From the NCBI GenBank assembly GCA_007134225.1, contig SLLE01000076.1, positions 79,111 through 143,110 of the forward strand: 64,000 bases of DNA, written 5' to 3'. The notes beneath the pieces were generated by a model, which was not told the origin of the DNA, searched no databases, and saw nothing but the letters and a program-made list of their open reading frames with translations. The first letter of the stretch is position 1, and each line of letters opens with the position of its first letter. This DNA comes from Tindallia sp. (GTDB taxonomy: Bacteria; Bacillota; Clostridia; Peptostreptococcales; Tindalliaceae). Shown one piece after another: positions 29,180 through 60,806 of this stretch. The position numbers were made by a program, and so were the translations under genes.

Positions 29180-29645
29180 CCCTCATCTCTGCCTTTAGCA
29201 GGGACGAGGACTATTCCGCGCGTTACCACCCTAATTGTTTTCACCAAAAGTGAAAACCACTCAAATCAGGTTCAATCAAACCCTTAGTCTATAACGGGAC
29301 TTGCCGATTACCCTTACTCATTTTCAGGGTAACTGCTCCGGAGCGAGTCGCATTTTACAGCAGTACCAGTTTTCAGCAGCCACTGGCTCTCTATAACTGC
29401 ATTGAATAAAACACTAACTCCATCAAAACGCATTTGCCTGCTCTTCAAATAGAAAAGCGTAAATTCAGGTTCAATCAAACCTTAAGCCTTTAACGGGGCT
29501 ACCCGATTATCCTTACTCTTTTTTCCGGACAACTGCTCGGGAGGGATTCTAACGATCCAACAGTATCGGTTCTCAGCGAACACCGACTCTCTGAAACTGT
29601 ATTGTTAATCATTACTGTCTCCGTCTGTGCATTTTGTTGTGTTTA
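29180..29645 (-). promoter_or_regulatory. Tandem T-box leader: Ile (ATC) module then Leu (CTC) module with one antiterminator/terminator
   Basis: Two homologous segments (about 29460-29640 and 29235-29410), each with AGAGAG, GAGTAAGG.TAATCGG...CCCGTTA and GGTTTGATTGAACCTGA; specifiers ATC at 29547-29545 and CTC at 29347-29345; only one AGGGTGGTAACGCGCGG T-box plus terminator, near 29190-29235. Confidence 0.85.
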
Positions 29646-33801: not shown

Positions 33802-33988
33802 ATAAACAGGATTCTTAGCTTCTGTTGGAGTCTTAACTCCATCAGAAGCTAAGAATGCGTTATCCTATCCATAAGTAGATGGCTTAAATGTATCATTTGG
33901 TGGCAGATACTTAGTTTCTTCACGCCAGGCGTAGCACCACTTATCTCCCTCTTGCATAAGAGGGAATCTTAGCGGTGGTAGTCATCGG
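33802..33988 (-). mobile_element. Copy A of a 187-bp structured repeat, candidate IS200/IS605-like non-autonomous element
   Basis: Minus-strand sequence CCGATGACTACCACC...AAGAATCCTGTTTAT; inverted homologue at 59770-59956; subterminal hairpins; TTTAT just 5' of the left end. Confidence 0.7.
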
Positions 33989-34014
33989 ATAAAATAATTT
34001 CACTGTCAATTCTA

Positions 34015-40033: not shown

Positions 40034-40300
40034 AAAAAGCCTTTTCATCCTTATATCGATAAGGACGAAAAGACTTCGCGGTACCACCCTATTTCCTCAC
40101 TCTCATCTAAGTAAGCGCGAGGCTCTCTAGAGGAATATAACGGTTCCCATTCCGTCTGAACGTACACACTCTAATCGCTTCCGCTCAGATGCTCTGAAGC
40201 TACTTCGACAACCAGTCATCCTAAAACCTCTCAGCCATGGGTTTTATTCTCTGTAGGTTCTTTTGTTGCCTACTCTTCTTCTTCATCGCTACCATCTTTC
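40034..40300 (-). promoter_or_regulatory. T-box leader of valS, Val specifier (GTA at 40203-40201)
   Basis: Minus strand GTCGAAGTAGCTTCAGAGC; AGGGTGGTACCGCGAAG; terminator TCTTTTCGTCCTTATCGATATAAGGATGAAAAGGCTTTTTT. Confidence 0.92.
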
Positions 40301-59754: not shown

Positions 59755-59769
59755 CTTTTACTTGTTTAT

Positions 59770-59956
59770 CCGATGACTACCACCGCTAAGACCCCCTCTT
59801 CTAAAAGAGGGAGATAAGCGGTGTATACTACGTACCCGAGGTGAAGAAACTAAGTACTGCCACTAAACGATACATTTGGGCCATCTGCTTATGGATAACG
59901 CATTCTAACCTTCAGATGGAGTTAAAACTCCACCTGAAGATAAGAATCCTGTTTAT
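59770..59956 (+). mobile_element. Copy B of the 187-bp structured repeat, candidate IS200/IS605-like non-autonomous element
   Basis: CCGATGACTACCACCGC...AAGAATCCTGTTTAT, preceded by TTTAT; inverted relative to copy A. Confidence 0.7.
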
Positions 59957-60806
59957 CTAAGAGTAAATCTAAGGCACAAGATAAAGCATCATTGTTATTC
60001 GTGCAGACTACCATGTCTGCATTTTTTTTTAGCGACTCCGTGGCATTTTTCACTGCTATTCCCATCCCTGCATACTCAATCATACTGAGATCATTGTCAT
60101 GATCTCCTATAGCAACAATGGTTTCAGGTGATATTCTAAGGTTATTAGCCAGTATCTTCAGCGCATTTCCTTTCGTAGCATGCTTGTCTAAAATCTCCAT
60201 GTTATCGTTTCCTGATCGTGTAACAAATATATCCGGCAGTTCTTTGAGCTGCTTTTTTTTTGCTTCAAGTAAATGATAGTCGGAAGAAATGACGATTAGA
60301 TTTGTCATGCGATATCCCTGCTCAATAAACGTTTCAAAATTAACCAATTGATAGGTCGAAGTAAAACAAGCCGCCTGTAAAGCGCGCCCCAATGACCTCA
60401 AATGGCTCTTTTGACTTTTCCTCTCGAATCGATATAAATTCCCAAATCGGCTCCATCGACTTTTGACATACGTATATTTCTCATCAGAGCCATGAAAATA
60501 CAGAGATGGCTTTCTAACAAGTATTTTCAATACTTCTCCTAATGAGTTTTCATCGATGTAATGAGTTTTCATAATTTCTTTATGTGGATTTCGAATGACT
60601 GCTCCATTATTCGTAATTAACCAACATTTGATTCCTATTTGCTCCAAATACGGTTCAACGGTGTGAAATGGTCTGCCGGTGCATAAAGCAATCTCCATTC
60701 CCTGCTGGTATGCCTTTTGCAATGCGATAATATTTTTTTCTGAAAGGTTTTTTCCGTCATCCAATAGTGTTCCATCCATATCCGTAGCCAAAAGTTTATA
60801 TTTCAA
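59922..60806 (-). CDS. Cof-type HAD-superfamily hydrolase
   Basis: 294 aa; MKYKLLATDMDGTLLDDGKNLSEKN, TKGNALKILANNL, AIGDHDNDLSMIEYAGMGIAVKNA; last residues and stop lie in repeat copy B. Confidence 0.93.
   Translation of the reverse strand: MKYKLLATDMDGTLLDDGKNLSEKNIIALQKAYQQGMEIALCTGRPFHTVEPYLEQIGIKCWLITNNGAVIRNPHKEIMKTHYIDENSLGEVLKILVRKPSLYFHGSDEKYTYVKSRWSRFGNLYRFERKSQKSHLRSLGRALQAACFTSTYQLVNFETFIEQGYRMTNLIVISSDYHLLEAKKKQLKELPDIFVTRSGNDNMEILDKHATKGNALKILANNLRISPETIVAIGDHDNDLSMIEYAGMGIAVKNATESLKKNADMVVCTNNNDALSCALDLLLDKQDSYLQVEF

Follow-up and report, generated by a model that had tools for sequence, protein, structure and literature searches.

Bcr1 elements are repeats of about 155 bp. 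They occur at high copy number in the Bacillus cereus group, are MITE-like, often lie in UTRs, and carry a TTTAT motif tied to their mobility (PMC6542083 and PMC3446304). Judged by behavior rather than by demonstrated homology, they are the nearest thing in print to the family described here, sharing its high copy number, TTTAT-linked mobility, and MITE-like form. Our family, however, is found in Clostridia, and blastn of three of its copies against a plasmid collection, the Bacillus content of which is unchecked, gave no Bacillus match. If the likeness is true, the family would be a clostridial counterpart of bcr1.

The IS200/IS605 elements (IS608, ISDra2) and their MITEs offer a second comparison. 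In IS608, each hairpin has a guide directly 5' of it; one pairs with the target beside the left end, the other with the final bases at the right end (PMC6006769). The present family is alike in that its hairpins are subterminal, its left end is preceded by a T-rich target, no duplication is made, and the terminal bases on the right pair with a guide on the 5' side of the right hairpin; it differs in having neither tnpA nor a known parent, and in placing the left guide on the 3' side of the left hairpin, where the right end shares it. Group A IStrons also insert without duplication 3' of TTGAT, ATTAT, or TTTAT (PMC4227781) and so resemble the family in target preference, but our copies contain no group I intron and their right ends are not TCAG. 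REP sequences and REPINs, which depend on RAYTs (REP-associated tyrosine transposases), are likewise small, palindromic, and non-autonomous, and RAYT-type genes occur in many of the genomes that carry our element; the latter is nevertheless asymmetric, with two hairpins and a fixed target, and its link to RAYTs is inconsistent. Pneumococcal BOX elements are modular, with end modules and an optional middle unit. The comparison with BOX is one of design rather than sequence, and in the present family the middle unit is also a stand-alone repeat elsewhere.

The window copies and evidence of movement

The window is the whole stretch of DNA analyzed, 64,000 nt of a Tindallia genome. An earlier note, made from the letters of the window alone, had proposed an IS200/IS605-like MITE in two inverted 187-nt copies, and both copies are present (Table 1). 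They do have the same start, the first 22 nt being identical and occurring nowhere else in the window nor in shuffled windows, and in both, TTTAT lies immediately 5' of the left end and again at the right end. The predicted hairpin near each end was recovered when copy B and its flank were folded as a single strand (z -4.4), and covariation in relatives agrees. None of the genome's Y1 or TnpB profile matches falls in the window, which is in keeping with the note's statement that it holds neither tnpA nor tnpB. The equal length of the two copies is partly a coincidence because their alignment contains internal indels and most other full-length copies found by blastn in the same genome are 183 nt. 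Copy A has a phosphoribosyltransferase gene on one side and a polysaccharide-deacetylase-type gene on the other.

Table 1. Parts of the two element copies and the gene overlapped by copy B (window positions).
Feature	Position	Strand	Basis
Copy A of mobile element, 187 nt	33802..33988	-	coordinates, alignment; orthologous site empty in G004, G005, G006
Copy A left flank TTTAT (target site, outside element)	33989..33993	-	flank reading and empty sites
Copy A left hairpin	33935..33977	-	covariation in relatives
Copy A inserted core module (independent palindromic unit)	33866..33923	-	missing from short form; free-standing in other genomes
Copy A internal guide GGATAACG	33858..33865	-	covaries with element bases 1-2 and right end, 99 copies
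Copy A right hairpin	33812..33855	-	covariation
Copy A right-end TTTAT (belongs to element)	33802..33806	-	end comparison among aligned copies
Copy B of mobile element, 187 nt	59770..59956	+	coordinates, alignment, own-genome blastn
Copy B left flank TTTAT (target site)	59765..59769	+	flank reading
Copy B left hairpin	59781..59823	+	fold and covariation
Copy B inserted core module	59841..59892	+	palindromic unit free-standing in other genomes
Copy B internal guide GGATAACG	59893..59900	+	covariation
Copy B right hairpin	59903..59946	+	fold and covariation
Copy B right-end TTTAT (belongs to element)	59952..59956	+	end comparison among aligned copies
HAD-type hydrolase gene, last 35 nt including stop within copy B	59922..60806	-	ORF versus element coordinates

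The element is mobile. In three congeners of the window genome, the spacer orthologous to that of copy A is empty, reading TTTTTTTAT joined directly to AGAAT in G005 and G006, and TTTTTTAAT joined to AGAAT in G004; these are the empty sites with TTTAT that the earlier note had named as a check, and copies were neither confined to syntenic positions nor linked to one class of gene. Copies also interrupt genes. At locus L352, a YifB/comM-type gene is broken by two of them, both inserted 3' of TTTAT, and the pieces of the gene flanking the first copy join near model position 308-310. Another (L006) breaks a frame matching an IS1182 transposase model at 76.2 bits, below the full-length cut-off; since none of seven genomes searched yielded another copy of this gene, the empty site is here defined only by the open reading frame. 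Copy B itself supplies the tail of the HAD hydrolase, DSYLQVEF, which reads VKATSKTTEG when the flanks are joined. Movement is judged to have been recent from the identity of copies within single genomes, which reaches 99.3% in G007, 99.2% in G194, and 98.5% in G454.

Ends, target, and internal guide

The common form of the family is ~133 nt including its flank and comprises two long hairpins with an internal GGATAAC common to both: in order, TTTAT, the left hairpin, the conserved spacer CCCTGGATAACG, and the right hairpin, closed by CTGTTTAT or a variant of it. In the window, a further palindromic unit beside the guide brings this short form to 187 bp. The earlier note had described a long internal core; it is indeed shared by copies A and B, but it forms a palindromic module of its own, and most relatives do not have it. 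This palindrome, AAGT..CTGCCAC..ATTTGGGCCATCTACTT, stands free in other genomes (L078, L084), is arranged in tandem at L080 and L081, and sits within the left-hairpin loop at L110, and because it occurs in these three ways, we regard it as an independent unit nested in the element. At L078, the free core palindrome adjoins an apparent tRNA gene, and at L081 an apparent rRNA spacer; these RNA genes were recognized by eye. At L101:7375-7438, the right end is found as a near-perfect inverted palindrome, with TTTAT facing outward at both ends.

Among the 99 copies aligned, the left flank is TTTAT in 70, and the right end is TTTAT in 70; the motif is present at one side only in 40 copies, 20 of them at the right only and 20 at the left only. 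Thirteen copies end in TTGAT, and their left flanks are TTTAT (nine copies), GTTAT (two), CTTAT (one), and TTGAT (one). Given the 40 discordant copies and the TTGAT ends, the right-hand pentamer is the element's own and the left-hand one is the target, and the right-end TTTAT is not a target duplication. Terminal inverted repeats are likewise lacking, and this comparison of ends upholds what had been read from the two window copies on both counts. Insertion 3' of TTTAT, also read from those copies, is seen in the left flanks, in the empty sites, and in the gene-interrupting copies, and such insertion 3' of a short T-rich target without duplication is as found in IS200/IS605. In tandem arrays (L075, L106, L109, L112), the right-end TTTAT of one copy doubles as the left flank of the next.

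Both end hairpins are long, imperfect, and kept by compensatory changes, and changes in the internal GGATAAC go together with changes at the left terminus and at the right end, as those of guide and cleavage sites do in IS200/IS605. The larger alignment matched 99 of 100 source copies, L285 being below threshold; its model structure is 91.3% paired, with a score of 0.392 versus 0.136 when shuffled and at most 0.109 when slid, and the left helix is lengthened by the pairs 11-67 and 12-66. When all 8515 column pairs were ranked by an unsupervised scan, left base 7 with the guide came 13th (CG 79, TA 14) and the guide with the right end 14th (CG 47, GC 23, TA 12), both falling among the pairs of the two hairpins. 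Five genomes contain both pair types of the left-guide association, which held under within-genome shuffles (p 0.002); for guide and right end, the corresponding p of 0.094 (three genomes) was not significant, and the pairing of the terminal right bases with a guide on the 5' side of their hairpin, an IS200/IS605 trait, is thus based on between-clade differences (C-G, G-C, T-A). Named Clostridium copies with left TATCT carry internal AGATAA, and the others pair TTATCC with GGATAA. The two guide pairings have ATAA in common and are mutually exclusive. Part of the family has T at guide position 76 and still a left flank of TTTAT, leaving left base 3 unpaired in 26 of the 99 copies; either the guide tolerates a central mismatch or pairing with the flank is not strictly required. 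As far as the literature searched shows, this would be the first covariation evidence for end and target recognition by such an element.

Distribution and the search for a helper

Blastn with copy B, a genome-wide check that the earlier note had suggested, gave 59 matching pieces in the element's own genome, at ~41 separate places by our count. All seven family-level genomes contained matches, and a covariance model built from 29 copies found them in 37 of 393 order-level and 33 of 391 class-level genomes; eight candidates were scored per genome, so the copy counts per genome in these searches are lower bounds. A pattern scan of named genomes yielded 23 stretches, which lie in Clostridium bovifaecis, C. 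peptidivorans, C. brassicae, C. simiarum, C. sulfidigenes, C. liquoris, Hathewaya massiliensis, and MAGs that include one under the title Anaerovorax odorimutans; this collection and the others may lack the genome of the window and those closest to it. In plasmid and phage collections, family copies gave a single weak match to a Tepidibacter plasmid, viral contigs gave none, and no Rfam entry was matched. A full-text literature search, the scope of which did not extend to subscription papers or ISfinder, found no description of the family. What had been proposed from two copies is a dispersed, non-autonomous, MITE-like mobile family across many clostridia, as shown by its empty sites, its gene-interrupting copies, and its spread within its own genome.

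The full-length parent with tnpA or tnpB and the same ends that the earlier note envisaged was not found. Left-right end pairs 150-5000 nt apart were absent from 334 loci, giving no element with a transposase gene between family ends, and none of 73 Y1 loci, part of the matches listed, had element ends around the gene; an IS200/IS605 member would have a Y1 tnpA inside it or a parent with its ends. Nor did the Y1 loci resemble RAYT genes flanked by repeats, with copies nearby at only one of the 73 (L352). Y1_Tnp and TnpB profiles were searched in the own genome, and Y1 in overlapping sets of 7, 16, and 22 genomes, of which 5, 13, and 19, respectively, had Y1 genes. The profile search gave no Y1 match in G756, G202, G563, G001, G003, and G399, yet G756 and G202 have at least eight scored copies each; only broken or partial Y1 genes occur in G194, G241, and G454 (in G194 only a broken one, in G454 only fragments). 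Although a Y1 gene may have been lost from draft assemblies, Y1 genes do not track the element across genomes. The IS200/IS605-like layout claimed at the outset stands for the right-end guide, the hairpins, and the target, but not for the position of the left guide, the parent, or the tracking of Y1 genes.

The single true IS605 with both tnpA and tnpB in a relative rich in copies (L061) was considered as parent and rejected because its ends differ, and what looked like right-end-only copies in the own genome (L206-L208) are explained by a contig end and by deletions. IS200/IS605 elements prefer the lagging-strand template; here, counts of copies on the same versus the opposite strand to the leading strand were heterogeneous in the four genomes sampled (4:15, 10:2, 5:14, and 2:6), with one G235 copy near the origin omitted, weak palindromic counter-strand matches dropped, and two near-terminus G007 copies kept.

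Several Y1-type genes are recorded here in their own right. The RAYT-like gene of L352 (G640) scores 76.5 bits with NCBIfam REP_Tyr_transpos (cut-off 80), has two element copies within ~1 kb, and forms a fusion with a comM-like gene; in G007 (L131), comM-like and dprA-like genes stand on either side of a RAYT-type gene, and at L032 another such gene lies between GGGACG/GGGACA-type sequences (60-100 and 920-960) resembling inverted ends. In three genomes (L035, L067, L141), a thioredoxin-reductase-like gene has beside it a Y1-like gene whose HUH motif is degenerate, perhaps a domesticated transposase; the other two are 75% and 37.5% identical to L035.

Proposed mechanism and rival readings

We judge it fairly probable that this is a non-autonomous, MITE-like element working like IS200/IS605, by "peel and paste"; IS200/IS605-like mobility is likely, and membership of that family is unproven. 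Imperfect hairpins near either end, found by fold and covariation, are as in IS200/IS605, whereas the complement of TTATCC sits 3', not 5', of the left hairpin. A shared-guide version is proposed because the right end fits the IS608 plan and the left complement, 3' of the left hairpin, is in the same stretch. The substrate would be single-stranded DNA, on which the guide would present two cleavage sites in turn, on the left between TTTAT and CC and on the right after GTTTAT, to a tyrosine transposase of the Y1 type provided in trans. Once excised, the circle, with the joint GTTTATCC, would be guided to a new TTTAT, and that joint would be complementary to GGATAAC except for one T. A shared guide yields a prediction that can be tested and might provide a very small insertion unit directed by its fold.

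The enzyme might instead be a RAYT mobilizing a REP-type element in trans, as in REPINs. RAYT-type Y1 genes in many element-bearing genomes, the two copies near the L352 gene, and a GTAG, read by eye, on the complementary strand at the foot of the left hairpin are all consistent with this, but it is a possible rather than a likely account, as nearby copies are confined to a single Y1 locus, G194 and G454 have near-identical copies and no intact Y1 gene, and two unlike ends with a fixed TTTAT target are not those of a single REP. The several genomes with near-identical copies and no intact Y1 gene also underlie an unlikely reading in which this is a widespread gene-less class of mobile DNA in Clostridia, one guide pairing alternately with both cleavage sites and the mover being an enzyme other than the usual Y1; the identity of the missing helper would tell Y1 acting in trans from another enzyme. 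It is quite improbable that a tyrosine recombinase or integrase moves a folded, cassette-like single-strand site with TTTAT as the shared core, because many unrelated TTTAT insertion sites better suit a transposase, even though tandem arrays with a shared TTTAT, single-strand folds, and genomes without Y1 would suit it.

TTTAT flanks most copies on both sides, as would a 5-bp duplication made by a DDE insertion sequence, and the empty site of copy A is compatible with duplication or a right-end motif alike; that the element is a DDE-type MITE is nonetheless very improbable, since it lacks terminal inverted repeats, the covariation links single-strand features, and of the 13 copies ending in TTGAT only one follows TTGAT, while 20 others have TTTAT at the right and not the left. 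We give hardly any credence to an RNA, regulatory or structured, that spread in some other way and for which mobility is incidental. The RNA fold of the element is strong (z -7.9) and the two overlapping pairings of the guide are switch-like, but the neighbors are unrelated, Rfam gives no match, and copies lie within genes, including another transposase gene; as a whole account, it is contradicted by the precise empty sites and the insertions in the YifB/comM-type gene. The window does contain recognizable RNAs, all on the minus strand: three T-box leaders (1715-1950, 29197-29435, and 40058-40295) and an RNase P RNA (2135-2520).
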